Assembly (NCBI GenBank): GCA_963920705.1
Contig: OY987232.1
Coordinates: 15,005,726-15,069,725 of the forward strand
DNA: 64,000 nucleotides
Direction of reading: 5' to 3'
DNA from: Odiellus spinosus
Taxonomy: Eukaryota; Arthropoda; Arachnida; Opiliones; Phalangiidae
Position 1 is the stretch's first letter. Every line of letters begins with the position of its first letter. Positions 1 through 63,950 of this stretch are shown one piece after another. The notes under the pieces are model-generated. The model was not told the DNA's origin and did no database searches. It was given only the letters and a program-made list of their open reading frames with translations. A program made the translations under genes and the position numbers.

Positions 1-3000
1 AGTTTCAGTGGCAATAGAAGAACTGCCTTTCGGAACATAGGTAGATGGTATTGTAGCTGAAGCGGAAGTAGATGATACTGTAATTGCAGCGGAAGTAGAT
101 GAACTAGATAACTTCATTGTTTCCGCACTACTTTCCGATGATAAGCGAGGAGTAACTTTATGGAAAGTAATTCTTTCGGATGTTACTTCAGGAATAATTA
201 TCGAGCTAGTACTTGTTTCGGATGTTATTTTTGGAGAAATTGTAGACCTAGTAGTAGCTTTCGGAACAAAAGTAGATGGTTCGGTCGTAGTACTACTTTG
301 CGAAAGTATGGTCGATAAAGGTGTCGAAGAACTTATTTTTAATCCAGTCCAATTTTTTGGAGTAGCTGTCGACATAGCAGTTGTTTCGGATGTTTTTGTA
401 GGGGTGATTGTCGAACTAGAGTGGCTTTTCGTTGTGATGTTAGATGTGACTGTCGACAAAGAAAGGGTTTCTTTCCGAGTAGTTTTATTTATAATAAAGG
501 TTAATGGTTCGGTAGAGGTAGTGGAAGGCATGCTAGATAATTCCATTGTTTCCACGCTACTTTGTGCAGAGATAGTTGATAAAGGCATCTTGGAACTTGG
601 AGCAATAGTATTAGATGATATGCTAGGAGTGACTGGAGACATAGAACTAGTTTCGGATGTTACGTTAGAATGGGTCATGTAATGTTGAGGTATTTTGGTG
701 GTGAAAAACGAAATTGTAAAAGAAGATTCTTTCTTTAAACTTACAGTAGAAAAATACGCTGTTTTAGGTTTATGCGTTGAAAATAAAGTGTTTAGGTGGT
801 ACGCGCATAGTTCTGTCTTCGTAGTTGTAGTAGGAGTACTAGATAACTCAGTTCCTTCGCTAATATTTTGAGTTTTGATGGTTGCGCTTGGTGTCGTGGT
901 ACTTATAGTTACTTCAGCAGTAGCTTCATATTTTATGTTAGGAGTTACTGTCGACAGAATACGGCTTTCGGATGTAATGCTAGGATAAAATGTCGACATA
1001 GTAATAGTTTGGGAGTGTTTAATAGAAGAAATTGTCGGCATATAAGTTGTTTCGATAGTAGCTTTTTCAGGAGTACTATTCGATGTAGGAATCGTGGAAC
1101 CTTTGGTTAATTCAGTACTAGTTTCGATTGTCAAGCTAGGAGTGACGGTCGACATAGTAATAATATCGGATTTAAAGATAGGAGTTACTGTAGACCTAGT
1201 GCTTGTTTCGAATTTTATGCTAGGAGTAACAGTCGAACCAACACTAACTTCGGATGTTACTCTAGGAGTTGCTGTTGACATAGTACTAGATTCTAATGTA
1301 ATGTTAGGAGTGACTGTCGATTTAGTACTAATTTCGAATGATATGCTAGGAGTGAATATCGACATAGTACTAGTTTCAGTGGTCATGGTTGGAGTGAGTG
1401 ACGATCTAACAGGGTTTCTGGTTGTTTTGTTTGTCATGACTGTCGATAAAGAAAAGGATTCGGAATATTTTGAGTATGAAGGCAATTTTTTAGTAAAATG
1501 TACGGTAGGGATTGAAGTTTCTTTCTTAGTACTTTCAGTTGCTATGAAATAACTGCATTTCGGAACAAACGTTGATGGTTCCGTAGAGGCAATGGAAGTA
1601 GACGTGTTAGATAACTCCATTGTTTGCGTACTACTTCGTGAAGTGATGCTAGATTTCGATGTTTCGATGGAAATTATTTTGATAGTAGGGATTGAAGTTT
1701 CTTTCTTAGTAGTTGTACTTGCAATAAAAGAACTGCTTTTCGGACCAAAAGTATACGGTTCTGTAGAGGTAGCGGGAGTAGATGTACTAGATAAGTGCAT
1801 TATTTTCGCACTACTTTGACCAGTGATGGTCAATAAAGGTGTGTTGGAACTTATGGGAACTTCTGTACTAATTTCGGATGCTAAACTAGGAGTAACTGTC
1901 GACATAGGGATTGTTTTGGATGGTATTGTAGGAGTGATAGTGATTGTTTTGGATGGTATTGTAGGAGTGATAGTCGAACTAGTACGTATTTTAGTTGTTG
2001 TTGTCGTCGTGACTGCCATCAAAGAAACGGTTTTGGAATAAGGCTTTGTTTTGTTAGTAGAAAATAATGCTGGAGATGAAATTTCTTTCCAAGTAGTTTC
2101 AGTTGTAGATGTACTAGGTAACTTCATTGTTTCTGCACTACTTTTAACGGTGATGGTCGATAAAGGTGTAGTGGAACTTATGGTTTCTCCAGTTCTAGTT
2201 TCGGATGATACGCTAGGAGTGACTTTATGCAAAGTATTTGTTTCGGATTTTATTTTAGGAGTCATTGTCCAACTAGTACTTGATTCCGATGCTATTTTTG
2301 AAGTAATTGTAGACTTGGTAGTAGTTTTTGGAACAAAAGTATCCGATTCTGTACTTATTTTCACTCCAGTTATATTTTTTGATGCTATACTAGGAGTAAC
2401 TGTCGACAAAGTACTTGTTTCGAATGTTTTTGTAGGAGTGATTGTCGAACTAGTGTGGGTAGTCGACAAAGGAAGGGTATCTTTAACAGTAGCTTCAGTT
2501 ACAACAAAAGTTAATGGTTCTGTAGTGGAAGCGGAAGGTGTGCTAGATAACTCCCTTGATTCCACTTTAATTTGTGTAGGGATAGTCGATAAACGTATCG
2601 TGGAGCTTATCGTACAAGTTTCGGATGCTGATGACATAGTGATTGCTTTGGATGTTATAGTAGGAATGATTGTCGACATAATACTAGTTTTGGATTTAAT
2701 TCTGGGTTCGACTGGAGAAATAAAACTAGTTTCAGATGATAAGCTAGGAGTGCCTTGTAGCATAGTACTAGTTTTTGACACTATGCTAGGAGTGCCTGTT
2801 GACGTAGTTCTAGGTTCGGATGTGATGCTAGGACTGACTGTCGATATAGTACTACTTTCAGATTTTATGCTAGGAATAACCGTCAATAAAGTACTAGTTT
2901 CGGGTGTGATGCTAGGAGCGACTGTCGATATAGTACTAGTTTCGATTTGTGAGCTAGAAGGTCCTTTTGATCTAGTTTTAGATTCGGATGTTATGATAAG

Positions 3001-6000
3001 AGTACCTGTTGACATAGTACTACTTTCGGTTGTGTTGCTAGGAGTGACTGTCCACATAATATTAGCTTCCGACGTTATAATAGGAGTGACTGTTAACACA
3101 GTACTCGTTGCGGAGGTTTCAATAGGTGTGATGGTCGACATAGTACTAGTTTCGAATATCATGCTAGAAGTTTCGAATATTATGCTAGGAGAGACAGTCG
3201 ATAGTGTATTAGTTTCAGATGTTTTGCTAGAAGTAAATGTCGACATAGTACTAGTTTTGGATGTTATGCTAGAAGTGCCTGTTGATTTAGTTATAGATTC
3301 GGATGTTATGATAGGAGTGCCTTTTAACATAGTACTTCTTTCGGATGTTATGATAGGAGTACCTGTTGACATAGTACTACTTTCGGTTGTGTTGCTAGGA
3401 GTGACTGTCCACATAATATTAGCTTCCGATGTTATAATAGGAGTGACTGTTAGCACAGTACTCGTGGCGGAGGTTTCAATAGGTGTGATGGTCGACATAG
3501 TACTAGTTTCGGATATCATGCTAGAAGTTTCGAATATTATGCTAGGAGAGACAGTCGATAGTGTATTAGTTTCAGATGTTTTGCTAGAAGTAAATGTCGA
3601 CATAGTACTAGTTTTGGATGTTATGTTAGAAGAAACAGTCGACATTGTACTAGTTTTGGACGTTAGGCTAGGAGTGACTGTGGACAAAATAATTTCGGGT
3701 GTAATGCTAGGAGTTACTGTCGACATAGTACTAGATTCGAATGTAATTTTAGGAGTTACTGTTTCAAATGATGTTCTAGGAGTGATTGTTAACATAGTAC
3801 TTATTTCGGACGTTACGTTAGGAGAGACGGTCAACAAAGTACTAGTTTCGTATGTAATGGTAGGAGAAACTGTCGACATAAAAATAGTTTTGTATGTTGG
3901 TTTAGGAGTGATTGTCGGCATAGTGTGGCTTTTCGTCATGTTAGATGTGATTGTCGACAAAGAAAGAATTTCGGAATATGAGGCTGGGATTGAAGTTTCT
4001 TTCCTACTAGTTTCATTTACAAAAAAGGATAACGTAGCGGAAAAAGGTGTACTTGATAACTCCACTGTTTTCGTATTTTTTTCTGCAGTGAAGGTCGATA
4101 AAGGTATCGTGGAACTTATAGTATAAATTTCGGAAGATATGCTAGGACTTCTTGTATACATAGAACTAGTTTCGGATGTAACGTTAGTGGTCAATTTCGA
4201 GATTGAAGGAGTTTTGTCATGTTTAGTTTTTTCCGTGGTAAAAAGTGAAATTTGTTTCTTTGAGCTTACAGAGGATAAAGAAACCGTATTAGGCTTATAA
4301 GTTGAAAATAACGTGCGAAGATGGTACGCGCATAACTCTGTCGTCGGATTTATTGTAAAAATGGGAGTACTAGTTAGCTCCACATTTTCCGTTATATTTT
4401 GATTCGTGATGGTTACTGTAGGCGTCGTGGATTTTACAGTGACTTCTGGAGTCTCAGATGTTGGTGTAGGCGTAACTTTTGATAAAGATCGGTTTTCAGA
4501 GGCAATTGTCGTAAAAGAGCTAGTTTCGGATATCAAGCTAGGAGTCAATCTCGATGTAGTAGTTTCGAAATTTATACTAGTTTCTGAGGTGATTCTAGGA
4601 ATGACTGTTGTCATAGGACTATATTCGGATGTTATTCTAGAAGTAACAATTGACTTGGTACTTGTTTCGGACGTTATGCTAGGAGCGCGTGTAGACATAG
4701 TACTAGTTTCAGATCTGATGCTTGGAGTGGATGTGGACATAGGAATAGTTCGGGATATAATTCTGGGAAGGGATGTCGACATAGTACTAGTTTCGGGAGT
4801 TACTATCGATATAATACTAGCTTCTGAAATGATGGTTGGATAACCTGTGGGCAATGTACTTGTTTTGGATGTTATGCTAGGGGTGACTGTCGATATAGTA
4901 CTAATTTCGGATGATATGCTAGGAGTTCCTTTAGACATAATACTAGTTTCGTTTGTGATGCTAGGAGTGACTGTTGATGTAGTACTATTTTCCGAAGAGA
5001 TGGTTGGAGTGCCTGTGGACATAGTTCTGGATTCATATGTGATGCTAGGAGTATATGTCGACGTAAAAGTAGTTTCGTATATTATGCTAGGAATGGATGT
5101 CGACATGGTACTAATTTTCGAAGTAATGGTTGGGATACCGGTTGACTTAGTTCCAGATTCGGATGTGATATTACGAGTTATTGTCGACATTGAACTAGAT
5201 TCGGATGCGATGCCAGGAGTTACTGTCGATATAGTACTTCTCTCAGATGTAATGTTAGGGACGACTGTTGATATGGTACTACTTTCGGATATTATGCTAG
5301 GCGCTACTATTGATATAGTACTAGTTTCCGAAGTGATGGTTGGATAGCCTGCGGGTATCGTACTCGGCTTGGATGTTATGCTAAGAGTACCTGTCGACAT
5401 AGTACTAGATTCGAATGTAATTTTAGGAGATACTGTAGATATAGCACTTGTTTCAAATGATTTTCTAGGAGTGATTGTTAACATAGTACTTATTTTGGAT
5501 GTTACGTTAGAGGTTAACAAGGTACTAGTTTCGTTTTTAATACTAGGAGAAACTGTCGACATAGAAATAGTTTTGTATGTTTGTTTAGGAGTGATTGTCG
5601 GCATAGTGTGGCTTTTCGTCATGTTAGATGTGATTGTCGACAAAGAAAGAATTTCGGAATATGAGGCTGGGATTGAAGTTTCTTTCCTACTAGTTTCATT
5701 TACAATAAAGGATAATGTAGCGGAAAAAGGTGTACTTGATAACTCCACTGTTTTCGTATTTTTTTCCGCAGTGAAGGTTGATAAAGGTATCGTGGAACTT
5801 ATAGTATAAGTTTCGGAAGATATGCTAGGACTTACTGTATACATAGAACTAGTTTCGGATGTAACGTTAGTGGTCAATTTCGAGATTGAAGGAGTTTTGT
5901 CATGTTTAGTTTTTTCCGTGGTAAAAAGTGAAATTTCTTTCTTTGAACTTACAGAGGATAAAGAAACTGTATTAGGCTTATAAGTTGAAAATAACGTACG

Positions 6001-6240
6001 AAGATGGTACGCGCATAGCTCTGTCGTCGGATTTATTGTAAGAATGGGAGTACTAGTTAGCTCTACTTTTTCCGTTATATTTTGATTCGTGATGGTTACA
6101 GCAGGCGTCGTGGATTTTACAGTGACTTCAGGAGTCTCCGATGTTGATGTTGATAAAGATCGGTTTTCAGAGGCAATGGTAGAATTATTTGTCGTAATAA
6201 AGCTAGTTCCAATTGGCAAGCTAGGAGTCCCTGTGGACAT
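1..6240 (-). repeat. C-proximal diverged zone: degenerate 14-residue repeats mixed with ELCAYH modules
   Basis: Minus-strand 42-bp units are still recognisable (SITSETST-like octets recur) but differ from each other at many positions. They are interrupted by longer non-14-residue modules that contain ELCAYH motifs at about 796-813, 4,321-4,338 and 6,004-6,021. This is part of the giant reading frame, which remains open throughout and runs off the left edge. The divergence contrasts with the near-identity of the core array. Confidence 0.8.
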
Positions 6241-9200
6241 AGTACTAATTTCGGATGATACGCTGTGATTAACTGTCGACATAACACTAGTTTTGAATGT
6301 TTTGCTAGGAGTGACTGTCAATAAAGTACTAGTTTTGAATTGTGAACTAGGAATGCCTGTTTTCATAGTACTGGCTTCGGATGTTATGCCAGGAGTGGTT
6401 CTTGATATATTACTTGTTTCGTATGTGACGCTAAGAGTGGGTATTGTCGTAGCACTACTTTCGGACTTTATACTAGGAGTGACAGTCAATAAAGCCGTAG
6501 ATTCGCGCATGATTCTAGGAGTTACTGTCGTAGTAGTACTAGTTTCCGTAATAATGGTTTGCGTAGACATGGTACAAGTTTCTGATGTTGTGCTAAGAAT
6601 GCTTGTCCTCATACTACTAGTTTCGTATGATATGGTAGGAATGCCGGTTACCATAATACTAGTTTCAGATGTGATTCTAGGAGTAGATGTCAACATAGCA
6701 CTAGTTTTCGATGTTATGCTAGGAGTAAATTTCTTCGTAGAACTAGTTTCCGAAATTAGGGTTGGTGTTCCTATGGACAAAGTACTCCTTTCGGATGTTA
6801 TACTAGGAGTGCCGGTCGTCATATTACTAATTTCGGATGTGATACGAGGAGTGACTGTCGATAAAGAACCAGTAACGAATGTTATGCTAGGAGTGCCTGT
6901 CAACATAACAGTATTTTCTGATGTTATTCTAGGAGTGGATGTCGACATAGCACTAGTTTCGGATGTTATGCTAGGAGTAACAGTTGACTTGGTACTTGTT
7001 TCAGATGTTGTGATAGGAGTAACAATCGTCTTAGGACTGATTTCGGATGTTAGGCTAGTAGTAACTGTCGAAAGAGTACTAGTTTCGGAAGTGGTGCTAG
7101 GAGTAACTGTGGACATATTACTAGTTTCGGATGTCATGCTAGGAGTCACTCTCGATGTAGTAGTAGTTTCGAAATTTATGCTAGGATTTACTGTCGGCAT
7201 AGTACTTGTTTCTGAAGTGATTCTAGGAATGACTGTCGACATAGGACTATTTTCGGATGTTATTCTATCAGTAACAGTTGACTTGGTACTTGTTTCGCAC
7301 GTTATGCTAGGAGTGGATGTCGATATAGTTCTAGTTTCGGATTTAATGCTAGGAGTGCGTGTAGACAAAGTTTCAAATCTGATGCTTGGAGTGGATGTTG
7401 ACATAGTTCTAGTTCGCGATTTGATGCTGGGAAAGGATGCCGACATAGTACTAGTTTCGGATGCTATGCCTGTCGATATAGAAATAGATTCGGATGTGAT
7501 GCTAGGTGTGGATGTCCACCACCTAGTTTCCGAATTGATGGCTGGAGAGCCTGTGGACAAAGTACTAGTTTCAGATGCTATGCTAGGAGTCAATATAGTA
7601 CTAGTTTCGGATATTATGCTTCGAGTAGATGTCGACAAAGTGCTAATTTCGGATGATATGCTAGGAATGCTTGTTGACATAATACTACTTTTCAATGTAA
7701 TGGCTGGAATAACTGTTGATATAGTACTCTCGGATGTTATGTTTGGGCTGACTGTCAATACAGTATTACTTTCGGAAGTTATGCTGGGAGTTATTATCGA
7801 TATAATACTAGTTTCCGAAGTGATGGTTGAATAGCCTGTGGGCAATGAACTCCTTTTAGATGTTATGCTAGGCGTGACTAGCGATATAGTACTAATTTCG
7901 GATGATATGCTAGGAGTTCCTTTAGACATAGTACTAGTTTCGTTTGTGATGCTAGGAGTGACTGTTGATATAGTACTATTTTCCGAAGTGATGGTTGGAG
8001 TGCGTGTGGACATAGTTCTCGATTTGGATGTGATGCTAGGAGTATGTGTCGACGAAGTAGTAGTTTCGTATGTTATGCTGGGAATGGATGTCGACATAGT
8101 ACTAATTTTCGAAGTAATAGTTTGGATGCCGGTTGACTTAGTTCCAGTTTCGGATGTTATACTAGGAGTTATTTTCGACATATAACTAGATTCGGATGCG
8201 ATGCCAGGAGTTACTGTCGATATAGTACTTCCCTCGGATGTTATGATGGGGACGACTGTCGATATAGTACTTCCCTCAGATGTTATGATAGGGACGACTG
8301 TCGATATAGTACTAGTTTCCAAAGTGATGGTTGGATAGCCTATGGGTATGGTACTCGGCTTGGATGTTATGCTAGGAGTACCTGTCGATATCGTACTAAT
8401 TACGGATGATATGCTAGGAGTGGCATAAGACATAGTACTAGTTTCGTTTATGATTGTAGGAGTGGCTGTTGATATAGTACTATTTATCGAAGTGATGGTT
8501 ATAGTGCCTGTGGACATAGTTCTCGTTTCGGATGCAATGCTTGGAGTGGATGTCGAAATAGTACTATTTTCGGATGTAATGCTTGGAGTGGATATCGAAG
8601 GAGTTCTAGTTTCGGATGTAATGCTTGGATTGTATGTGGACAAAGTACTGGTAGGAATGACAGTTGACATAGTACTAGTTTCAAATGTTATGCTTGGAGT
8701 AGATGTCAACATAGAAGTTTCGGATGTACTTTGTATAGTAGATGTCGACAGATTACTAGTTTCGGATATAATGCTTTGAGTGGATTTTAACATAGTACAA
8801 GTTTCGGATGTAATGCTTGGAGTGCCTATCGATAAAGTACTAGTTTCGTATGTTATGTTTGGAGTTGATGTCAACATAGTATTACTTTTGGGTGCAATGG
8901 TTGGAGTTGATGTCGAAAGAGTACTAGTTCCGTATGCAAGGCTTGGAGTGGATTTCGTTAGAGTACTTATTTCGGATGATATACTATAAGTGCCTGTGGA
9001 CATAGTACTAGCTTCGGATGTTATGCTTGGAGTACTAGCTTCCGATATAATGCTTGGAGTGGATGTCGACATAGTAGTATTTTCGAATGTAATTTTTATA
9101 GTAGATGTCGAGAGATTACTAATTTCGGATGTAATGCTTGGAGTGAATTTCGACAGAGTACTTATTTCGGATGATTTACTAGGAGTGAATGTGGGCAAAG

Positions 9201-12200
9201 TACTAGTTTCGTATGCTTTCCTTGGAGTGACTGTCAAAATAGTACTAATTTCCGAAATGATGGTTGGAGTGCCTGAGGACATAGCTCTTGATTCGGATGT
9301 GATCCTTGGAGTGGATGTCGATATAGTACTTTTTTCGGATGATATGCTAGGGGTACCATTGGACAAAGTACTCTTTTCGGATGTGATGCCTATCGATATA
9401 GTACTAGTTTCGGATGTTACTCTTGGAGTGGTAGTCGATATAGTAATTGTTTCGGATGTAATGCTAGGAGTGGATGTCGACGGAGAACTAGTTTCAGATT
9501 TAATGCTTAGAGTTGATGATGACAGAGTACTTATTACGGATGATATAACAGAAGTGCCTGTAGAAATAGTACTAGTTTCGGATGATATGCTAGGAGTGCC
9601 TGTGGACATAGTACTAGTTTCGGATGATATGCTAGGAGTGCCTGTTGACAAAGTACTAATTTCAGATGTTATACAAGGAGTGCCTGTCGACTTAGTACTA
9701 ATTTCGGTTGTAATGCTTGGAGTGGATGTCAACATAGTACTTGTTTCGGATGTAATGCTAGGAGTGGATGTCGACGGAGAACTAGTTTCTGATTTAATGC
9801 TTAGAGTTGATGACGACAGAGTACTTATTACGGATGATATAACAGGAGTGCCTGTGGAAATAGTACTAGTTTCGGATGTGATGCTTTGAGATCCTGTGGA
9901 GAATGTACTAGTTTCGGGTGATACTCTAGGAGTGCCTGTTGACAAAGTATTAGTTTCGGATGTAATGCTTGGAGTGGATATCGACAGAGTATTTATTTCG
10001 GAAGATATTCTATTAGTGCCTGTGGAAAGAGAACTAATTTCGGATGATATGGTAGGAAAGCCGGCTGATATAGTACTAGTTTCAAATGTTATGCTTGGAG
10101 TACATTTCGACAGAGCACTAGTCTCGGATGTTTTGCTTGGAGTGAATGTCGAATGAGTTCTAGATTCGGATGATATGTTTTTAGTGGAAGTCGACAGAGT
10201 ACTAGATTCGGCTGTAATGCTTAAAGTGGATGTCGACAGAGTACTTTTTTCAGGTATAATACTAGGGGTGCCAGTGGACAAAGCACTAGTTTCAAATGTT
10301 ATACTAGGAGTGCTTTTCGACAATTTGCAAGTTTCGGATGTTTTATTTGGAGTGGATGCCAATATAGTACTTATTTCCAAAGTGATGGTTGGAGTGCCTT
10401 TGGACATAGTTCTAGATTCGGATATGATGCTCGGAATGTATGTCGATATAGTCCTAGTTTTGGATGTAATTCTAGGAGTGGATGTTGACAGAGTACTTAT
10501 TTCGGATGATATGCTAGGAGTGCCCTTCGACATAGTACTAATTTCGGATGTTATGCTTGGAGTGACTGTCAAGATAGTACTAATTTCCGAAGTGAGGCTA
10601 GGAGTGCCTATCGATATACTACTAGTTTCGGGTGTTATTCTTGGAGTGGATGTCGACATAATACTAGTTTTGGTTGCAATGCCTGAAATGGAGGTCAAAA
10701 GAGTACTAGTTTCGGAAAAAATGCTTGCAGAGGATGTCGACATAGTAGTTCCGGATGTAATTCTTGGAGTGCATGTCGACAGACGAGTAGTTTCGGATGG
10801 TAAGTTAGGAAAGATCGTTGACAAAGTACTAGTTTCGAAGGTTATGCTAGAAGTGATTGTCGACAAAGTTCTAGTTTCGGATGAAATGCCAGGAGTGGTT
10901 GTGGTCATGGTAAAAGTTTCGGCTGTCATGCTCGGAATGAATGTCGCTAAAGTACTAATTTCGGTTGTTAAGTTAGGAGTAACAGTTGCTATAGTACTAG
11001 TTTCGGTTGTTAAGTTAGGGGTCACAGTTGCCATAGTACTAGTTTCGGTTATTATGCTAGGAATGACAGATGATATTGTCTGTCTTTCGGAATATGGAGT
11101 TATTTCGATAGTATAATAAATGGTAGCAGTCGGTCTTGCTTTCGTTGTTTGAGAGGTTATTTTTGTAGGGCTTGATGGTGTACAAGTTGATGGCAATTTA
11201 CTTATATGATATGGACATAAGTTTGTTGTCTCAGCTGCAGAAGAACTTGCTGTCGATATAGTACTAGTTTCAGATGTAATGCTTAAAGCGGATGTCGAAA
11301 GAGTACTGGTTTCGAATTTAATGCTTGGAGTAGATGTCGAAAGAGTACTAGTTGCGCTTGTAATGCTTGGAGTAGATGTAGAAAGAGTACTAGTTGCGCT
11401 TGTAATGCTTGGAGTAGATGTCGAAAGAGTACTAGCTTCAGATTTAATGCTTAGAGTTGATGACGACAGAGTACTTATTACGGATGATATAACAGGAGTG
11501 CCTGTGGAAATAGTACTAGTTTCGGATGATATGCTAGGAGTGCCTGTGGACATAGTACTAATTTCGGATGACATGCTAGTAGTCCCTGTTGACAAAGTAC
11601 TAATTTCAGATGTTATACTAGGAGTGCCTGTCGACATAGTTTCGGACGTAATGTTTGGAGAGGATGTCGATAGAGTACTACTTTCGGATGTTGTGTTTGG
11701 AATGGATGTCAAAAGAGTACTACTTTCGGATGTTGTGTTTGGAATGGATGTCGAAAGAGTACTAGTTACGGTTTTGAGGCTTGGAGTGAATGTCGAAAGA
11801 ATACTAGTTTCGGATTTAATGCTTGGTGTAGATGAAGGTATAGTACTAATTTCGGATGTTACACTTGAAGTGGCTGTCGATATAGTACTAGTTTCGAATT
11901 TAATGCTTGGTGTAGATGAAGGTATAGTACTAGTTTCGGATTTTACGCTTGGAGAGGTTGTCGATATAGTACTAGTTTCGAATTTAATGCTTGGTGTAGA
12001 TGAAGGTATAGAACTAGTTTCGGAAGTAATGCTGGGAGTGGATGTCGATAGAGTACTAGTTGCGGATGTTGTGCTTGGATTGGATGTCGAAAGAGTACTA
12101 GTTTCGGTTTTGAGGCTTGGAGTGGATGTCGAAAGAATACTCGTTTTGGATTTAATGCTTGGTGTAGATGAAAGTATAGTACTAGTTTCAGATTTAATGC

Positions 12201-45200: not shown

Positions 45201-48200
45201 TGGATGTCGAAAGAGTAATAGTTTCGATTTTGAGGCTTGGAGTGGATGTCGAAAGAATACTTGGCGTAGATGAAGATATAGTACTAGTTTCACTTGTAAT
45301 GCTTGGAGTATATGTCGAAAGAGTACTAGTTTTGTATTTAATGCTTGGGGTAGATGCAGGTATAGTACTATTTTCGGATGTTACTCTTGGAGTGGTAGTC
45401 GATATAGTACTAGTTTCGCTTGTAATGCTTGGAGTAGATGTCGAAAGAGTACTAGTTTCGGATTTAATGCTTGGTGTAGATGAAGGCATAGTACTAGTTT
45501 CGGATGTTACTCTTGGAGTGGTAGTCCATATAGTACTTGATTCGGATGTAATGCAAGGAGTGGATGTCGATGGAGTACTAGTTTCAGATTTAATGCTTAG
45601 AGTTGATGACGACAGAGTACTTATTACGGATGATATAACAGAAGCGCCTGTCGAAATAGTACTAGATTCGGACGTGATGCTTGGAGAGAATGTCGATAGA
45701 GTACTAGTTTCGGATGTTGTGCTTGGATTGGATGTCGAAAGGGTACTAGTTTCGATTTTGAGGCTTGGAGTGGATGTCGAAAGAATACCTGGCGTAGATG
45801 AAGATACAGTACTAGTTTCGCTTGTAATGCTTGGAGTAGATGTCGAAAGAGTACTAGTTTCGATTGTAATGCTTGGAGTAGATGTTGAAAGAGTACTAGT
45901 TTCGATTGTAATGCTTGGAGTAGATGTCGAAAGAGTACTAGTTTCGGATTTAATGCTTGGTGTTGATGAAGGTATAGTACTAGTTTCGCTTGTAATGCTT
46001 GGAGTAGATGTCGAAAGAGTACTAGTTGCGCTTGTAATGCTTGGAGTATATGTCGAAAGAGTACTAGTTTCGGATTTAATGCTTGGTGTTGATGAAGGTA
46101 TAGTACTAGTTTCGCTTGTAATGCTTGGAGTATATGTCGAAAGAGTACTAGTTTCGGATTTAATGCTTGGTGTTGATGAAGGTATAGTACTAGTTTCGCT
46201 TGTAATGCTTGGAGTAGATGTCGAAAGAGTACTAGTTGCGCTTGTAATGCTTGGAGTATATGTCGAAAGAGTACTAGTTTCGGATTTAATGCTTGGTGTT
46301 GATGAAGGTATAGTACTAGTTTCGGACGTAATGCTTGGAGAGGATGTCGATAGAGTACTAGTTTCGGATGTTGTGCTTGGATTGGATGTCGAAAGAGCAC
46401 TAGTTTCGGTTTTGAGGCTTGGAGTGGATGTCGAAAGAATACTTGGAGTAGATGTCGAAAGAGTACTAGTTTCGCTTGTAATGCTTGGAGTAGATGTCGA
46501 AAGAGTACTAGTTTCGGATTTAATTCTTGGTGTAGATGAAGGTATAGTACTAGTTTCGGATGTAATGCTAGGAGTGGATGTCGACGGAGTACTAGTTTCA
46601 GATTTAATGCTTAGAGTTGATGACGACAGAGTACTTATTACGGATGATATAACAGGAGTGCCTGTGGACATAGTACTAGTTTCGGATGATTTGCTAGGAG
46701 TGCCTGTGGACATAGTACTAGTTTCGGATGATATGCAAGGAGAGCCTATCGAGATAGTACTTGTTTTGGGTGTAATGATTGGAGTGGATGTCGAAAGAGC
46801 ACTAGTTTCGAATGTAATGCTCGGAGTTGATGTCGGCAGAGTACTAGTTTCTGATATAATGCTTGGAGTGGATGTCGACCAAGTACTTGTTTCCGATGTA
46901 TTGCTTGGAGTGGATGTCAACGTAGTACTATATTCAGATGCAATGCTTGGAGTGGATGTCGTTATAGTATTAGTTTCGGATGTAATGCTTGGAGTGGATG
47001 TCGACAGAGTACTATTTCCGGATGTAATGCTTGGAGTACTTATTTCGGATGATATACTAAGAGTGCCTGTGGATAAAGTACTATTTTCGGATGAAATAAT
47101 AAGAAAGGCGGTTGACATAGTACTAGTTTTAAATGTTTTGCTTGGAGTAGATGTCAACAGAGTACTAGTTTCGGATTCGATGCTAGGAGTGGTTGTGAAC
47201 ATAGCAATCGTTTCGGTTGTCATGCTAAGAGTGAGTGTCGATAAAGAACTAGTTTCGGTTGTTTTACTAGGAGTTACAGTTGCCATAATACTAGTTTCGG
47301 TTCTTACGCTAGGAATGACTGACGATTTTGTCTTTCTTTCAGAATATGGAGTTATTTCGATAGAAGAATAAATGGTAGCAGTCGGTTTTTCTTTCGTTGA
47401 TTGAGATGTAATTTTTGTAGGTCTTAAGGGTGTACAAGTTGATGGAACTTTGCTAGTACTAGTTTCGGATGTAATGCTTGGAGTGGATATCGACGAAGTA
47501 ATAATTTCGGATGTACTGCTTGGAGTGAATGTCGACAGAGTACTAGTTTCGGATGTTATGCTTGGAGTGGATGTCGACAGAGTACTAGCTTCGGATGTAA
47601 TTCTTGGAGTGGATATTGACAGAGTACTTAATTCGGATGACATACTAGGAGTGTCTGTGGACAAAGTACTAGTTTCGGACGATATGCTAGGAAAGCCGGT
47701 TGACATATCACTAGCTTCAAATGTTATGCTACGAGTTTTTGTCAACATAGTACTATTTTCGGATGTAATGCTTGGAGTGGATGTCGACGTAGTACTAATT
47801 TCGGATGAACTGCTTGGAGTGGATGTCGACATAGTACTAGTTTCAGGGGTGATGCTAGGAGTTCGTGTAGTATTTGAGTCGGTTTTTATGCTCGGAGTGA
47901 CTGTAGATAAAGTCTGCCTTTCGAGAAATGAGGTAGATTTAATTGAAGAATAAGAGCTATGGCTTAGATTTTCCTTCGTTGTTTGTGACGTTATTGGGGC
48001 AGTTATTTTAGGCGTAAAGGAGCCGAGTATGGTACTTACATTGCAAGAGCATACTTCTGTTGTCACAGAGGATATAGGAGTACTAGTTGAAGTACTCTTT
48101 TGGGTAGTGATAGTCGAAGACTTCTTTGATTTTATAGTTATTTCAGTAGGGCTTTTAGGTGTATAAGTTGATAGCAATTTGCTTATATGATATGGGCATA

Positions 48201-51200
48201 ATTTTGTTGCCACAACGGCATTAGAATTTTTGGTAAATTCAAAAGTATCCGCATTTATTTGAGAAGCGATGGTCGTTGCAGGTTTTGTAGATGTTATATT
48301 TATTTCACTACTAGCCCATGATAATTTTGTTGGAGAAGTCGATAAATTTCTGCTATCGGAATATGAAGTAGATTCGACAGAAGAAAATGAGGTTGGGCTT
48401 GAGGTTTCATTCTTCGTTGTTTGAGAACTAATTGATGGAGTTCTTGTAGGTGCAAAAAAAGGTAGTAGAGGGCTTGTAGTTGTAGAAGTTGATAGCAATT
48501 TGCTTATATGATATGGGCATAATTTTGTTGCCATAACGGCATTAGAATTTTTGGTAAATTCAAAAGTATCCGCATTTATTTGAGAAGCGATGGTCGTTGC
48601 CGGTTTTGTAGATATTAAATTTATTTCACTACTAGCCCATGATAATTTTGTTGGAGAAGTCGATAAATTTCTGCTATCGGAGTATGAAGTAGTTTCGACA
48701 GAAGAAAATGAGGTTGGGCTTGAGTTTTCCTTCTTCGTTGTTTGTGATGTTATTGGCGAAGTTATTTTAGGTGTAAAGGAACTGAGTATGGTACTTATAT
48801 TGCTAGAGCATACTTCTGTTGTCTCAGAGGATATAGGAGTACTAGTTAACGTTTTTGAAGTACTCTTTTGGGTAGTGATAGTTGAAACAGATCTCGTTGC
48901 ATCTATCGTTATTTCAGTACTAGACTCGGATGATTTCTTTGGTTTGCTGGAAATTATTGTCGATAGTGTGAGTTTGTCGAAAAATGGGGTAGATTTAATA
49001 TATGAATAAGTGGTTGGCCTTGAACTTTCTATCTTCGTGGGTTGAGATGTTATTGCAGGGGTAAAAGAAGATAGTATTCTACTCATATTAAAAGTACTTG
49101 TTTTCGCAGAGGTTATTGGAGTTCTATTTAACTCCATTGTCGTCTTAGTATTTCGGGCAGTGACGGTCGAGTTAGGCGTCTTGGAAATTATCGTTATTTT
49201 AGAGCTTGCCCTGGGTGTTATGTTAGGACTGACTGTCGAAATTGTCTGTTGTTTAGAAGACGGAGTTATTTTGATTGAAGAATATATAGAAGCAGTCAAT
49301 CTTCCTTTCGTTGATTGAGACGTGATTTGAGAAGAGCTTGTAAGTGTAGAAATGGTTGATAGCAATTTGCTTAAATGATATGGGCATAATTTAGTGGCCA
49401 CAGCAATATTAGACCTTTTCGTAAATTTAAAAGTTTCCGCATTTATTTGGGAAGCGATGGTCGATGCAGGTTTTGTAGATATTTTATTTAGTTCACTACT
49501 TAATGATGATTTTGTTGGAGAAGTCGATAAATTTCCGTTATAGGAATATGAAGTATTTTCGACAGAAGAAAATGAGGTTGGGCTTGAGGTTTCATTCTTC
49601 GTTGTTTGAGATCTAATTGATGAAGTCCTTGTAGGTGCAAAAGAAGGTAGTAGAGGGCTTGTAGTTGTAGAAGTTGATAGCAATTTGCTTATATGATACG
49701 GGCATAATTTTGTTGGCACAGTGGAATTGGAACTTTTGGTAAACTCAAAAGTTATTTGGGAAGTGACTGTCGGTGCCAGTTTCTTTGATATTATACTTAG
49801 TTCACTACTAGCCATCGATGTTTCTGTTGGAGAAGAAGTCGATAAATTACTGCTTTCCGTATACGAAGTAGATTCGACAGAAGAATGCGATGTTTGAGAT
49901 AAAGTCCTTGTAGATGCAAAAGAAGGTAGTAGAGGGCTTGTAGTTGTAGAAGTTGATAGCAATTTGCTTATATGATACGGGCATAATTTTGTTGCCACAG
50001 TGGAATTGGAACTTTTGGTAAATTCAAAAGTTATTTGGGAAGTGACTGTCGGTGCCAGTTTCTTTGATATTATACTTAGTTCACTACTAGCCATCGATGT
50101 TTCTGTTGGAGAAGAAGTCGATAAATTACTGCTTTCCGTATACGAAGTAGATTCGACAGAAGAAAGCGATGTTTGAGATAAAGTCCTTGTAGATGCAAAA
50201 GAAGGTAGTAGAGGGCTTGTAGTTGTAGAAGTTGATAGCAATTTGCTTATATGATACGGGCATAATTTTGTTGCCACAGAGGAATTGGAACTTTTGGTAA
50301 ATTCAAAAGTTATTTGGGAAGTGACTGTCGGTGCCAGTTTCTTTGATATTATACTTAGTTCACTACTAGCCATCGATGTTTCTGTTGGAGAAGAAGTCGA
50401 TAAATTACTGCTTTCCGTATACGAAGTAGATTCGACAGAAGAATGCGATGTTTGAGATAAAGTCCTTGTAGATGCAAAAGAAGGTAGTAGAGGGCTTGTA
50501 GTTGTAGAAGTTGATAGCAATTTGCTTATATGATACGGGCATAATTTTGTTGCCACAGTGGAATTGGAACTTTTGGTAAATTCAAAAGTTATTTGGGAAG
50601 TGACTGTCGGTGCCAGTTTCTTTGATATTATACTTAGTTCACTACTAGCCATCGATGTTTCTGTTGGAGAAGAAGTCGATAAATTACTGCTTTCCGTATA
50701 CGAAGTAGATTCGACAGAAGAATGCGATGTTTGAGATAAAGTCCTTGTAGATGCAAAAGAAGGTAGTAGAGGGCTTGTAGTTGTAGAAGTTGATAGCAAT
50801 TTGCTTATATGATACGGGCATAATTTTGTTGCCACAGTGGAATTGGAACTTTTGGTAAATTCAAAAGTTATTTGGGAAGTGACTGTCGGTGCCAGTTTCT
50901 TTGATATTATACTTAGTTCACTACTAGCCATCGATGTTTCTGTTGGAGAAGAAGTCAATAAATTACTGCTTTCCGTATACGAAGTAGATTCGACAGAAGA
51001 AAGCGATGTTTGAGATAAAGTCCTTGTAGATGCAAAAGAAGGTAGTAGAGGGCTTGTAGTTGTAGAAGTTGATAGCAATTTGCTTATATGATACGGGCAT
51101 AATTTTGTTGCCACAGTGGAATTGGAACTTTTGGTAAATTCAAAAGTTATTTGGGAAGTGACTGTCGGTGCCAGTTTCTTTGATATTATACTTAGTTCAC

Positions 51201-54200
51201 TACTAGCCATCGATGTTTCTGTTGGAGAAGAAGTCGATAAATTACTGCTTTCCGTATACGAAGTAGATTCGACAGAAGAATGCGATGTTTGAGATAAAGT
51301 CCTTGTAGATGCAAAAGAAGGTAGTAGAGGGCTTGTAGTTGTAGAAGTTGATAGCAATTTGCTTATATGATACGGGCATAATTTTGTTGCCACAGTGGAA
51401 TTGGAACTTTTCGTAAATTCAAAAGTTATTTGGGAAGTGACTGTCGGTGCCAGTTTCTTTGATATTATACTTAGTTCACTACTAGCCATCGATGTTTCTG
51501 TTGGAGAACAAGTCGATAAATTACTGCTTTCCGTATACGAAGTAGATTCGACAGAAGAATGCGATGTTTGAGATAAAGTCCTTGTAGATGCAAAAGAAGG
51601 TAGTAAATTATAAGAGCTCGTATCAGTTTTCGCAGAGGTTATGGGAGATCTAGTTAACTGAGCAGCTTCTTGAGTAGTTTTAGTTATCACATTGGTAGAG
51701 GTGGTGGTAGATAACTTGTTTATTTCGATACTTTGGGTAGCAACCTTTGATGAATGTGTTGAGGAATTTTGATTGACTTCTGTACTAGGCACGGATGTTA
51801 AGTTTAAAGGGAGTGTCGATACATTACGGCTTAAAGAATACTTAAATTTCTCTTCAGTAGAATTAGAAGTTGGAGTTACATCGTTAGCTTTATTAGTACA
51901 GGTCGATATAGGTGTTGCGGAACTTTTATTAACTATAGTAGTATCCTGGAATAAAATATCTGTAGGCAGTGCCGACATATTACGGTTTAAGGAATACACA
52001 GTTATAACAAGAGATTTGTTTGAAGATGTATATACAGATTGCAATGTGTTTATATGATATGGACATAGTTTGGGCATCGCATCTGTAGGGGGATTACCAG
52101 ATACCTTCTTTATCTCAGTACTTAGGTTGAAGACGGTCGATATTTGTATTGGGAAACTTGTATTTACATTAGTTATACCCTCAGATGTTAAGGTTGGAGT
52201 CAGTTCCGATTTTTTAGGGCTTGCAAAATACCGAGTCGTCTCTTGAGTAGAATAAGATGTTGCAATTGTACTATTTCTTTTCTCTGACTCGGATGTAATT
52301 AGAGAACTAATTGTAGGTAAATGAGTAGGTTGTGAAATGGATAAATGGTATGGGAATAACTCAATTACAGTTGGGGTGGTGTTAGATACAATACGACTTA
52401 AGGAATATTGAGCAGTTTCTCGAGTAGAATGAGTTGTAATTGAATGTTCTTTCTCTGTTTCAGATGTTGTTAAAGAGCTGCTTTTAAGGTTACACGTAGA
52501 GGGTAACGTGCTTATATGATATGGGCATAGTTTTGCCGTCGCAACGAAGATCGGAGCAGTAGATAACTGGTTTTTATCAGTACTTTGGGTAGCTAGGGTC
52601 GACATAGATGTTGTGGAACTTCTATTTGCCTCGGATGTTATTGTTGGAGTGATGGTCGATAAATTACGCTGGCTTATGGCATAATGAGATGCTTCTGAAG
52701 TAGAATGAGTAGTTTTACTTATAGTGGTATTCGTCGCTATGTCAGATGTAATTATAGAACTGCTTGAAGGTGCAGAAGTTGATTTTAACTGGCTTATATG
52801 GTAGGGACATAGCACTTGCATGCCATTGATAGTACTTTGCATACCGATGGTTGAAGTAGGTGTTGAGGAACCTTTATAAGTAGATTGTAACGTGCTTATA
52901 TGGTACGCGCATAGTTCTGTAATCGCATCGATGGTGGAATCAGATGTTGTGGAACTTCTATTTGCCTCGGATGTTATTGTTGGAGTGATGGTCGAAAAAT
53001 TACGCTGGCTTATGGCATAATGAGATGCTTCTGAAGTAGAATGAGTAGTTTTACTAATAGTGGTATTCGTCGCTATGTCAGATGTAATTATAGAACTGCT
53101 TGAAGGTGCAGAAGTTGATTTTAACTGGCTTATATGGTAGGGACATAGCACTTGCATGCCATTGATAGTACTTTGCATACCGATGGTTGAAGTAGGTGTT
53201 GAAGAACCTTTATAAGTAGATTGTAACGTGCTTATATGGTACGCGCATAGTTCTGTAATCGCATCGATGGTGGAATCAGAAGGTATCTCATCCATCATGG
53301 TACTTTGACTAGCCATAGTCGATGTGGCACTTTGATTTACTTCAATACTAGCCTCGCTGGTAATGTTTGAAGTTAGTGTCGATATATTACGTCGGCTTAA
53401 CGAATATTTTATCTCTTGAGTAGTAAAAGTTGTTAATCCGTCTTTTTTCTCAGATTCAGATGGAACTGGAGATCGACTTGTAGGTATACAAGTAGATTTT
53501 ATCGTGCGCATATGGTACGCGCATAGTTCTGTCATTGCAACGATGGTGGAATCAGAATAAATCTCGTTCATCATGGTACTTTTAGTAGCCTTGGTCGATA
53601 TGCGTGTTGGGAAACTTCTATTTACTTTTGTAATACTCTTAGATGTTATGGTTGGAGTTAATTTAGATTTGTTAGGGCTTTTAAAATACTGAGTCGTTGA
53701 AATTGAATTGTTCTGTGTTTCAGTTGAAATTAGAGAACTAACTGTAGGTATGTAACTAGATTTAAAAGTGCGTATATGGTATGGGAATAAATCTGCCGTT
53801 ACATCGATAGTGGGACTAGCAGATACCTTCCTTGTTAATCTTAATTTTTTCAAAGTTCCAAATGCAATTAGAGAACTAATTGTAGTCTTTTTTGGTATTG
53901 CAAAGGTAGAATTAAAATTTCTTTCAGTACTAGATTGAAATTTCGTTGAAGGTGTTTTATTAACACTTTTAGAACTTATTTTTGAAAGGAACATGTTTAT
54001 ATGATACGGGCACATTTCTAACATCGGGTTTAAATTTGTTTTTTGAGTGTTACTTGCAATAGTGATCGATCTTAAACGTTTTAAATGAAAAGGCCACTTT
54101 CTAGTCAGTGTTTTGAATGGTATAGTAGTGAGTTCTTGGTTATTTTTATTTGTTTTTTTATTTGCTACGTACCTTTTAACTTTAACCGCATAGCTAATAT

Positions 54201-54995
54201 TTTTTAGGATTTTATCCACTTTTTGTGGGTCTAATTGTTTTGAAATCTTATCAGTTATATTATCGGAAAAAGTGGCTTTTTTCTTATTAATTAATGCAGT
54301 AGTACGATTAATAATTCGTGTATTAGTCAAGGTACATGGAGTTTCATAAATATATTTACTAACTTGGTAAGGGGATGTCTTTTTCATATGAATTTTAGAA
54401 TTGTTAATGAAACTTCGATGACGCGGAGAGAGGGAAATTACATTCGCAACGGTATTAAGATTGATCATTGAATATTTTAAGATTTTCTTGTTGGTGGTAT
54501 TTTTAGTTGACTTATGTATGATGTTACTACTAGGGGGATTAACTACAGATAGATTTTCTGTAGGAATTATCTGTCTTTTAGCTCTTTTCTTAAGTGGAAG
54601 TCTCAAACCGGACTGGTTAAACAATGGCATTGTTGTATTTGAGTTGGATATTTTATAATCCATCATTTTTAAATTAGAACTAGAGCGAATGCTTTTCAAT
54701 AAACCTTTCGTAATGGGAAATCTTCCCGCGCTTCGGTTTACAGTAGGCCTAATATTAGAATATCTTTTTTTCGTCGATAGGATAAAATCGTACAGCGAAT
54801 CGCCCTTACTTTTAGCGATTTCGACTTCATTGTAGTTTCTACTTACCTGAATACTATAACTTTTATCCTCCGATAAGGTGATCCTTGTCTTGTTAAGAGT
54901 TCCATTACGATTAGTCCGAAGAACATTTGCAAATCCATCGTTAAAATACCAGGTTCCATTCCCATCATGGTCTGAACCATTAATTGATACATTTC
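1..54995 (-). CDS. Giant mucin-like Ser/Thr/Pro-rich repeat protein, main exon (partial, C-terminus off the left edge)
   Basis: Minus-strand codons occupying positions 3k+1 to 3k+3 contain no stop that I found from 55,059 down to 1. I read the non-repetitive flanks codon by codon and sampled the repeat core. The frame gives 18,331 complete codons and has no end in the window. Order from the N-terminus: about 325 non-repetitive basic residues with several N-glycosylation sequons and an RAKR site; S/T-rich modules with an LC[PA]YH motif; seven near-identical 93-residue modules; then about a thousand 14-residue repeats (STSTPSITSETST plus M, L or I), in which 10 of 14 residues are Ser or Thr with one Pro. 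Such composition is typical of heavily O-glycosylated mucin PTS domains, so a secreted or surface mucin, glue or sericin-like coat protein is inferred. Cysteine is nearly confined to the LC[PA]YH motif. The start at 54,995 assumes a TTCTTGCAG acceptor; without splicing the first ATG is at 54,666. No family was recognised. Confidence 0.88.
3888..6123 (-). repeat. Segmental duplication inside the giant ORF, offset 1,683 bp
   Basis: The block at about 3,890-4,440 recurs at about 5,573-6,123 with only scattered substitutions. The shared part includes an ELCAYH module. The offset of 1,683 bp equals 561 codons, so the frame is preserved. Confidence 0.85.
6240..11095 (-). repeat. Diverged 42-bp (14-residue) tandem array
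   Basis: Continuous 42-bp units encode SITSETST-type repeats on the minus strand, with many substitutions between units and few non-repeat interruptions. The array is bounded on the right by a module at about 11,095-11,250 that carries NLCPYHISKL and TIEITPYSERQ-like sequence. It belongs to the giant reading frame. Confidence 0.85.
12820..19221 (-). repeat. Tandem higher-order duplication, 3,177-bp period
   Basis: The sequence from about 12,820 to 16,044 recurs from about 15,997 to 19,221 with very few differences; one is TGTAGACAT at 13,033 against TGTCGACAT at 16,210. The period equals 1,059 codons. Inside each copy a further duplication of about 1.26 kb is visible (compare about 13,831 with 15,094). 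Confidence 0.85.
17097..28612 (-). repeat. Higher-order duplication of a block of about 5.15 kb, offset 6,366 bp
   Basis: The block at about 17,097-22,246 recurs at about 23,463-28,612 almost unchanged. The intervening sequence carries related blocks. Landmarks at 18,911, 19,298, 19,868 and 21,428 reappear at 25,277, 25,664, 26,234 and 27,794. The offset equals 2,122 codons. Near-identity over 5 kb indicates recent unequal exchange or conversion, or an assembly duplication. Confidence 0.85.
33598..35800 (-). repeat. Two-copy higher-order repeat, 1,098-bp period
   Basis: A block beginning near 33,598 recurs near 34,696. Both copies contain the rare GTAGATAAAGATATAG variant (33,662 and 34,760) and a 9-bp shorter unit. 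The period equals 366 codons. Confidence 0.8.
36600..37850 (-). repeat. Two-copy higher-order repeat, 594-bp period
   Basis: The rare variant GATTCGGAAGTAATG at 36,827 recurs at 37,421, and the flanking units match at the same 594-bp offset (198 codons). Confidence 0.75.
40300..42330 (-). repeat. Two-copy higher-order repeat, about 1.25-kb period
   Basis: The rare unit containing GTCGAAATAGTACTAG at about 40,841 recurs at about 42,089, an offset of 1,248 bp (416 codons). Upstream the offset is 1,290 bp because one extra 42-bp unit is present in the first copy. Confidence 0.7.
43130..46025 (-). repeat. Two-copy higher-order repeat, 1,434-bp period
   Basis: The distinctive AACATGAGTGCCTGAGGAAA segment at 43,381 recurs at 44,815. 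The match extends over most of 43,130-44,590 against 44,565-46,025 with few substitutions. The offset equals 478 codons. Confidence 0.85.
48180..48830 (-). repeat. Two LCPYH modules, about 321-bp offset
   Basis: The segment with KLCPYHISKLLST at about 48,184 recurs at about 48,505 together with its flanks (compare 48,214-48,370 with 48,535-48,690). The offset equals 107 codons. Both lie inside the giant reading frame, between the 93-residue array and the 14-residue array. Confidence 0.8.
49640..51604 (-). repeat. Seven near-identical 279-bp (93-residue) modules
   Basis: The KLCPYHISKL codons recur with TAT-CAT anchors at 49,699, 49,978, 50,257, 50,536, 50,815, 51,094 and 51,373, each exactly 279 bp apart. 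The minus-strand module contains one Cys in LCPYH, a PSFASTRTLSQTSH-like stretch, and SSVESTSYTES followed by S/T-rich sequence. Copies differ at only a handful of bases (for example TGCGATG or AGCGATG, GTCGATAAA or GTCAATAAA). Confidence 0.93.
52610..53281 (-). repeat. Two-copy 336-bp duplication with paired LCPYH and LCAYH motifs
   Basis: VLCPYHISQL and ELCAYHISTL codons at 52,795 and 52,897 recur at 53,131 and 53,233, a 336-bp (112-codon) offset. The flanking ASHYAISQRNFST segment, with an N-glycosylation sequon, is also duplicated. Confidence 0.85.
54574..54585 (-). other. Putative furin-type RAKR cleavage site in the N-terminal region
   Basis: Minus-strand codons encode KKRAKRQ about 137 residues into the main exon. 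R-x-K-R is the classical proprotein convertase consensus. If the protein is secreted, cleavage here would release the repeat region from a short basic propeptide. This is inference from the motif alone. Confidence 0.35.
54841..54849 (-). promoter_or_regulatory. Perfect consensus splice donor CAG|GTAAGT inside the open frame
   Basis: On the minus strand the codons ATT CAG GTA AGT form a full match to the donor consensus, 149 nt downstream of the proposed acceptor. The frame continues open beyond it for 54.8 kb, so constitutive use would require a downstream acceptor within that frame. It could serve an alternative isoform that skips the mucin repeats. Confidence 0.4.
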
Positions 54996-55306
54996 CTGCA
55001 AGAATTGTATCTTTAAGTAACGTTTTTACTGATTGGAGATAAGGGACTACAATCGTAGTTTATCTAATAGGACAGTAAAGCCTATTATCCGAGTCACCAT
55101 ATGGCCTACAGAGTGCCCACCCGCTTCCGCGAGAGGCGGGGTACTGGGGAAAGAGGTAAGATTCAGTTCAGAAGACTGGGAAATAAAATCATTCCTAAAC
55201 AATGATTATCACCAGAAAAACTGAGACCTCTCGATTCCCCCTCCTCCTACTTCGACAAATACTTTTGCCTAAGCAAATTTGCAATTTTTGCCAAAAATCT
55301 ACGAAC
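54996..55306 (-). other. Putative intron 1 of the mucin-like gene
   Basis: The acceptor side reads TTACTTAAAG...TTCTTGCAG on the minus strand and is convincing. The donor proposed here, CTTG|GTTCGT, is weak. The splice joins phase 1 to phase 1 and restores a glycine codon. Alternative donors within exon 1 (CAAC|GTATCC or AAAA|GTGGAT) would also keep the frame, so the exact 5' boundary is uncertain. In-frame stops on both sides of the junction (55,299-55,301 and 55,060-55,062) make some splice necessary if the two exons belong together. Confidence 0.4.
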
Positions 55307-55469
55307 CAAGTATATTTAGGATACGTTGAATTCTTCTTCTGAGTGGATTTTCGTTTGTTTCGCGACATCCACTTTTAGATCTAACACTTGACTGAATCGC
55401 GATGATTATGCAAATGCATAAACAAATTATAAGAGCAAAAATCCGACGAGACTTAGGCCTAGAAGCCAT
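55307..55469 (-). CDS. Putative first coding exon of the mucin-like gene: signal peptide or signal anchor
   Basis: Minus-strand ATG at 55,469-55,467 in good context (AAAAAAATGGCT) opens a 54-codon segment. It has a basic N-region (MASRPKSRR), a hydrophobic core of about 16 residues (IFALIICLCICIIIAI) and then a polar QSS, as expected for a signal peptide or type II anchor. A Cys/Arg-rich stretch (GCRETNENPLRRRIQ) follows. It lies 311 nt upstream of the main exon on the same strand and joins in phase with it. That placement is what a secreted mucin needs, but the donor is weak and no transcript evidence is available, so this could be a chance ORF. Confidence 0.5.
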
Positions 55470-61824: not shown

Positions 61825-61983
61825 ATGTCGCGTGGCAAGTTGGTAGAACTATGGAATGGGGCCGAAGTGAATCGAGAGGACAATTACGGCAATACCCCTC
61901 TTCATTGGGCAGCCAAGTATGGTCACTGTGACCCTCTCGTTACTCTCATCGAAAGGGGAGCTAATGTTAATGCTATCAATAAA
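61825..61983 (+). CDS. Ankyrin-repeat protein, exon 1
   Basis: ATG at 61,825 opens MSRGKLVELWNG followed by one complete ankyrin repeat (NYGNTPLHWAAKYGH ... LIERGANVNAINK). The exon ends AATAAA|GTGAGT, a good donor, after a complete codon (phase 0). The repeat motif TPLHxAA and the terminal ANVNA are diagnostic of ankyrin repeats, which mediate protein-protein contacts. It continues at 63,165. Confidence 0.85.
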
Positions 61984-63603: not shown

Positions 63604-63950
63604 GTAAATATAATTGCGTTTTTTTGCCACGTTGAGAATGGAGGTCACGTGTGTTACGCGTTGAAACCACTAGCTACTAGTTTTCCCACGGTTTCCCCTC
63701 GTTATGGTGGTACATTACGCGTAACTAGTTTGGCGCAGGTCGTCAACTCGTCGTCTATTGGTAAGAGTTGAGAATCCGTGACCACGTGATATGCGTAGCC
63801 AAGGCAACTCTATGGGCGTGAGTGTTATCTCCCTGCACCAAACTTGAGATCTAAGAACAGGCAGTCCAACTCTCCATGGAGATTTCAAACAAGTTTTTCC
63901 CACACTTTTACTGTTTGTAGATTAACCATTTAGTCTAAACGGTCTACCCC
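63604..63950 (+). other. Likely intron 2 of the ankyrin gene (incomplete)
   Basis: Begins GTAAATATAA. No further ankyrin-like exon is recognisable before the window ends; short frames here lack any repeat signature. Confidence 0.5.

Follow-up and report, generated by a model that had tools for sequence, protein, structure and literature searches.

The stretch of DNA analysed here, a window of 64 kb (chromosome 8:15005726-15069725), is part of chromosome 8 of the harvestman Odiellus spinosus. Window positions are genome positions minus 15005725, so that negative values lie left of the window, where the reading took in a further 80 kb. According to the genome report, the assembly measures 443.70 Mb with a QV of 60.6 and about 54-fold HiFi coverage, chromosome 8, chromosome 15 and the mitogenome measure 20.45 Mb, 13.74 Mb and 16.07 kb, and Odiellus is placed in the Phalangiidae (PMC11503004). 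On the plus strand, the window holds a gene for a C2H2 zinc-finger protein (57008..58447, identified with Pfam) and exons of an ankyrin-repeat gene (61825..63632, with a Pfam match on 63165-63629 only). The remainder is dominated by one minus-strand frame (codons at 3k+1 to 3k+3), which has no stop from 55,059 to position 1; all 173 stops of this frame within the window sit above 55,059, and the five other frames carry between 285 and 3,217 stops each. The part visible in the window (1..55059, minus strand) comprises 18,353 stop-free codons, and the recount thereby confirms the original prediction of an unbroken frame of more than 18,300 residues. Reading leftward in the same frame until the stop codon, as had been proposed, the frame continues 42.8 kb past the window edge and ends with a TAA at -42,800..-42,798 (minus strand; chromosome 8:14962925). 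The whole open frame occupies chromosome 8:14962925-15060784 on the minus strand, with 97,860 nt including the TAA and 32,619 residues, and is 1.8 times the part seen in the window. Three separate genome searches each return it with 32,619 aa and no internal stop, and it is gap-free, the one N run in the 184 kb read lying outside it.

The product is a block polymer: an N-terminus with Cys is followed by Ser/Thr/Pro (STP) repeats over about 18,600 residues, then by a cationic NVT array of about 10,400 residues, and finally by a tail with Cys and Trp. The N-terminal Cys-motif region (48184..54015, minus strand; aa 349-2292) includes a 93-residue tandem repeat and 20 of the 25 matches to [LFMVI][CF][PA]YH[ILM], which lie at aa 349-2287, the other five being at aa 14614-19140. 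Likewise, counting C[PA]YH gives 18 occurrences at aa 350-2288 and six at aa 14615-20641 (the last as CAYHE at aa 20,641), always in the same frame, and these motifs flank an STP stretch of about 12,300 residues that is devoid of them. The sole RX[KR]R of the protein is an R-A-K-R furin-type site at residues 159-162 (54574..54585, minus strand). The mucin-like STP repeats fill 1..48159 of the window (minus strand) and reach leftward to -7640, covering aa 2301-20900 overall. Their unit has 14 residues, STSTPSITSETSTL, with 894 units recognised in aa 2301-16500; a dense core is followed by rising divergence and by further Cys motifs at aa 14614-20641. Ser and Thr make up 62% and Pro 8% of aa 2301-14000, so that the protein has the long tandem Ser/Thr/Pro-rich domain of mucin-like (PTS-domain) proteins, and with a maximum of 69 Ser/Thr per 100 residues the earlier figure of about 70 percent for the repeats was too high. 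The ends of the frame had also been described as non-repetitive or strongly diverged; at the right end only about 1 kb is clearly non-repetitive, after which repeated motifs begin, and the left window edge is diverged repeat and not the end of the gene.

Between the two arrays lies RMKWAELTAPEDYDIFSLRTKG (-7598..-7533, minus strand; aa 20865-20886), in which the tail motif GWLxxTGEDYY recurs in diverged form. The NVT array (-39296..-8211, minus strand) is built of the unit PTLVRNVTTPK, with 962 units recognised and 768 exact copies of PTLVRNVT, and carries an N-glycosylation sequon in nearly every 11-residue unit. Although the NVT array has neither the unit length (11 vs 14) nor the sequence of the STP array, both are in one frame. 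The tail (-42797..-39621, minus strand; aa 31561-32619) holds four copies of GWL/GFL..T[GD][ED]DY, three of ECKF[RK]..C, and four of WWExxC along with one WDKEC. Net charge per 100 residues is +4.0 in aa 1-2300, -2.6 in aa 2301-14000, +0.7 in aa 14001-20900, +13.3 in aa 20901-31560 and +7.1 in aa 31561-32619. There are 1,176 sequons, 940 of them within the NVT block. Of the 73 Cys, 61 are at or before aa 20,641 and 12 in the tail, and the NVT array has none. The protein as a whole has 44% Ser+Thr, 1.5% Ala and less than 1% Gly, with a calculated core mass of 3,449 kDa and a pI of 10.2. A higher-order repeat of 3,177 nt was observed at window 13037-19221, the adjacent copies of which are identical over 3,008 nt, pointing to either a very recent duplication within the exon or an effect of assembly.

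Absence of stops is not equally informative along the frame. Only 2 of 126 one-step changes in the STP consensus unit and 1 of 99 in the NVT unit give a stop, and none of these three is seen; the array cores alone are therefore weak evidence of coding. The stop-free ends and the diverged middle, on the other hand, are strong evidence. An order-1 model predicts 66 stops for aa 1-1000; for aa 14001-20950 it predicts 402 and for the final 1,319 codons 71. All three stretches have none. Dinucleotide shuffling never opened a stretch longer than 651 nt when applied to the whole frame (20 shuffles). The corresponding maximum was 462 nt in 200 shuffles of aa 1-1200, 579 nt in 60 shuffles of aa 14001-20900 and 561 nt in 200 shuffles of the final 1,059 codons.

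The reading frame is also kept between repeat copies. For self-alignment, as many as 60 queries of 300 nt were drawn at random from each region, and hits of 65-92% identity over at least 120 columns were retained. Their starts were offset by a multiple of three in 176 of 177 cases (aa 1-3000), 2,288 of 2,288 (aa 3001-14000), 2,073 of 2,110 (aa 14001-20950), 59 of 59 (aa 21000-31300) and 70 of 70 (aa 31301-32619). Among gapped alignments, the net indel was a multiple of three in 119 of 120 (aa 1-3000), 1,327 of 1,338 (aa 3001-14000) and 1,242 of 1,324 (aa 14001-20950). Many individual gaps measure one or two bases, for example 1,029 one-base gaps in aa 14001-20950, and it is the net per gapped alignment that is a multiple of three in 94-99%. 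Exact repeats of at least 300 nt are displaced by a multiple of three in all 412 cases.

Mismatches by codon position (first/second/third) show a strong third-position bias in the NVT array (633/182/1,417). For aa 31301-32619, a stretch that still contains the final NVT units, the counts are 451/371/678, and for the diverged STP part 13,764/16,889/19,389. The STP core (11,517/11,294/13,346) and aa 1-3000 (1,027/1,017/1,197) show only a small excess at third positions. For random unit pairs, dN/dS is 0.35 in the NVT array (962 units) and 0.59 in the STP array (894 units), as ratios uncalibrated against a neutral simulation with the real mutation spectrum. Similarly, the short C-terminal motifs keep their residues while silent sites are near-saturated; the four copies of the GWL motif have a pS of 0.79 vs a pN of 0.26. 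Because the non-repetitive ends are free of stops, net indels are multiples of three, the bias is synonymous and C[PA]YH recurs in frame, this is more than a repeat that happens to lack stops, and coding is indicated. The open frame is almost certainly protein-coding, and the sequence agrees with the predicted giant frame for a mucin-like protein, at a greater length than the window had shown. A plus-strand open frame of 8,982 nt also occurs inside the STP array (window 33596-42577), accompanied in that frame by others of 2.4-4.4 kb; these are read as antisense shadows of the repeat, with no evidence of a gene.

The main exon is very probably uninterrupted over more than 90 kb, as judged from the sequence. 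About 0.4 kb upstream of the giant frame, a candidate first coding exon (55373..55469, minus strand) begins with an ATG at 55469 and would encode MASRPKSRRIFALIICLCICIIIAIQSSVRSK, which is signal-peptide-like with an 11-residue hydropathy peak of 3.83. Its candidate donors at 55388, 55373 and 55307 are weak (1.1-2.9 bits, by home-made and approximate splice weights) and all leave phase 1, matching the two candidate acceptors of the giant exon, with first exon base at 55028 or 54995 (minus strand, both phase 1). Where exactly the exon begins and ends is uncertain because the frame holds a donor-like site near each end. The first is a perfect CAG/GTAAGT (54841..54849, minus strand) inside the frame after residue 71, and an alternative splice or a small upstream exon is possible there; the second is AAG/GTAATT (-42791..-42783, minus strand) after residue 32615, with four codons left before the stop. 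An AATAAA follows about 130 nt past the TAA. An intron between 54,846 and the nearest following phase-0 acceptor (54,612, 3.2 bits) was considered and is unlikely, as none of the 78 codons it would contain is a stop. In the sense strand, the 98 kb of the frame contain 6 donor-like sites, compared with 11-39 per 100 kb in the flanks; base composition explains part of this scarcity, because the antisense strand has even fewer (3).

Searches with parts of the product yielded no relatives. In the genome, the C-terminal 650 aa matched only itself, an N-terminal piece of 933 aa was found in five places, all in this frame, and among the 209 matches listed for an NVT probe (150 of 486 candidates scored) all were inside this frame. 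In a protein collection of uncertain arthropod coverage, nothing was found at E<=0.01 for the C-terminal 650 aa (7,201 candidates) or for aa 21-1000 (best 7,988 candidates by shared words), which is weak evidence that homologues are absent. No relative of the C-terminal 650 aa was found in the PDB at E<=1. A Pfam scan of aa 1-2600, 14001-21686 and 31834-32619 gave no domain above cut-off; VWD and C-terminal cystine-knot domains, EGF repeats, a ZP domain and spidroin N- or C-terminal domains were all without a match in these parts, and for spidroins the empty PDB search with the C-terminal 650 aa points the same way. The candidate first exon (56 aa) also had no Pfam match. One weak match in aa 1-2600, to DUF7785, was rejected as sub-threshold (21.3 bits vs a cut-off of 27) and as lying in low-complexity sequence, and a structure predicted without alignment for the last 246 residues was unusable (pLDDT 31).

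The reading preferred here, and a reasonably probable one, is that a gene for which the genome searches found no second copy, with a main exon of about 97-98 kb, encodes a secreted gel- or glue-forming polymer with a core of about 3.4 MDa, which would be heavily O-glycosylated over its first two thirds and N-glycosylated over its last third. Assignment of the product to secreted gel or adhesive glycoproteins as such is given about the same, if slightly lower, credence. Secretion is suggested by the signal-peptide-like upstream exon and by hydropathy, which finds no transmembrane-like stretch in the frame, the last 120 residues included (the highest 19-residue value being 1.46). Ser/Thr/Pro blocks of such density are usually O-glycosylated and stiff. 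Glycosylation of both kinds is predicted from composition, namely the Ser/Thr/Pro density and the sequons, and each common 11-residue NVT unit would offer one glycan site and about two positive charges. The sparse Cys motifs of the N-terminus, the diverged repeats and the tail may serve disulphide cross-linking. Since blocks of opposite charge sign are present in one chain, the slightly acidic Ser/Thr block may attract the strongly cationic NVT block, and the polymer could condense into an adhesive gel. That it is adhesive rather than lubricating is a tentative and rather doubtful suggestion. The family of Odiellus belongs to the Eupnoi. Palpal setae with a sticky secretion are described in another harvestman group, the Troguloidea, and plumose setae, secretory or not, in juvenile and some adult Eupnoi (PMC3088029). 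The evidence does not tie the gene to such setae, and a mucus of gut, eggs or semen would be equally possible.

Several other explanations were weighed against a secreted gel or glue made from one giant exon. It is unlikely, and yet the foremost of these, that the product is a structural protein of extracellular matrix, cuticle or fibre, such as a Dumpy-like elastic tether or a silk-like fibre. Giant size, repeats and an extended composition would suit such a protein, and the terminal Cys and Trp motifs could anchor it into a matrix; however, no ZP, EGF or other matrix domain rises above cut-off in aa 1-2600, 14001-21686 and 31834-32619, the low Gly and Ala contents are unlike silk, and the overall Ser+Thr content is a better fit to a mucin. 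Somewhat less likely again is a coding sequence divided among several exons, whether by short in-frame introns, by alternative splicing from the CAG/GTAAGT at residue 71 across part or all of the frame or by several genes sharing the frame, with smaller products. The frame does hold donors of at least 9 bits (the maximal one at residue 71 and five others) and 32 acceptor-like sites of at least 8 bits, and composition was assessed in bins 1,000 residues wide, which are compatible with short introns. Against this, six such donors in 98 kb are few, motifs are common to both sides of the array junction and of the STP core, and exact repeats keep the frame without exception (412 of 412).

The remaining two explanations concern the DNA itself. 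An assembly error that expanded or joined the arrays, the true gene being coding but much shorter or split, is very unlikely. The copy number does rest on a HiFi assembly with exact repeats of up to 3,008 nt, four of them exceeding 2 kb, and a mean read of about 11 kb follows by our arithmetic from the reported 23.96 Gb in 2.11 million reads (PMC11503004). Nevertheless, the longest exact repeat is shorter than the average read, the frame is gap-free, and a QV of 60.6 and about 54-fold HiFi depth are reported (PMC11503004). Least probable of all is a satellite or a degenerate mucin pseudogene with repeat units that merely have no stops: long tandem arrays and the rarity of one-step stops in the consensus units would fit it, but not the total lack of stops where 66, 402 and 71 are expected in the ends and the diverged middle of 7 kilocodons, nor two unrelated arrays in one frame with synonymous bias and indels in multiples of three.

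Among known systems, the vertebrate gel-forming mucins MUC2 and MUC5B have PTS repeats in one giant exon (10.7 kb in MUC5B) and Cys-bearing end regions. The harvestman protein resembles them in its PTS repeats within a giant exon, its Cys-bearing ends and its predicted secretion; it differs in having no VWD or cystine-knot domain in the scanned parts and in its second, cationic array of sequons, and its frame is about nine times the MUC5B exon. Insect Dumpy and other ZP-tether proteins are giant extracellular arthropod proteins with repeats, but the scanned parts of the harvestman protein have neither EGF nor ZP domains. In the open literature on giant and longest exons, neither this gene nor an exon so long was found described, and PKZILLA did not surface. 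PKZILLA and bacterial giant proteins are further giants. Titin is intracellular and built of Ig/FN3 domains. It shares with the harvestman protein a length of over 30,000 residues; human titin is given as 363 exons with 38,138 codable residues, and its largest exon in that account (17,106 bp) is about 5.7 times shorter than the harvestman frame (PMC12198301). The nearest likeness in arachnids noted here is that of the spider glue genes of Argiope trifasciata, AgSp1 (42,270 bp of coding sequence in two exons) and AgSp2 (20,526 bp), which also are giant repetitive coding sequences in very few, very long exons with Ser/Thr/Pro-containing, likely O-glycosylated repeats that their authors compare with mucins (PMC6553539). 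These repeats differ in having about 22% Gly and about 18% Ser+Thr, and a conserved spidroin N-terminal domain is reported for them (PMC6553539), whereas the harvestman has 97,860 nt in one frame and no spidroin-domain match by Pfam in the scanned parts. Against the yardsticks of titin and AgSp1, as far as those accounts go, the predicted rank among the longest single exons stands. The likeness to mucins and spider aggregate glue is best read as one of composition, and kinship with any named family is not claimed.

If the frame is transcribed as read, the practical limit of exon length in animals would shift. Questions are thereby raised of how an exon of about 98 kb is spliced, exported and translated, and of how well over 1,000 repeat units stay free of stops and frameshifts. 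Stop-free giant frames that fill an entire sequence window are easily overlooked. In its fullest form the proposal is possible, though the odds lean somewhat against it: at 97+ kb the exon would exceed every single coding exon so far noticed in animals, and its product would be a lineage-specific two-block secreted polymer, O-glycosylated and mildly acidic in one block, N-glycosylated and cationic in the other, that co-condenses into a harvestman adhesive or slime; both the design of this glycoprotein and its family (C[PA]YH, GWLxxTGEDYY, WWExxC and ECKF motifs) would be without described relatives. The two-block design of glycan and charge offers a testable bio-adhesive idea.

Beyond the right edge of the window there is a pair of similar exons of the animal haem peroxidase type (PF03098; local coordinates L009:5270-5701 and L010:2541-2951), about 7 kb apart and probably from tandem genes, the products of which could in principle cross-link secreted polymers. 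Further right are sulfatase-like exons, the first identified by PF00884 (local L011:113-454) and the second by eye about 9.4 kb on, with two DDE-transposase frames (PF13359; local L011:1671-5336) between them. On chromosome 15, at about 1.1-4.4 Mb, mitochondrial COX1 has several nuclear copies that contain stops; the longest copy covers 340 of 436 model positions. No trnL gene separates COX1 from COX2 in the mitogenome (16,074 bp); both trnL genes are located between nad1 and rrnL, and this gene order is the non-pancrustacean one. Two minus-strand genes, trnI and trnQ, sit between trnL(tag) and rrnL. The two trnL genes are about 870 bp apart, an interval in which only one additional, weak tRNA call was made.
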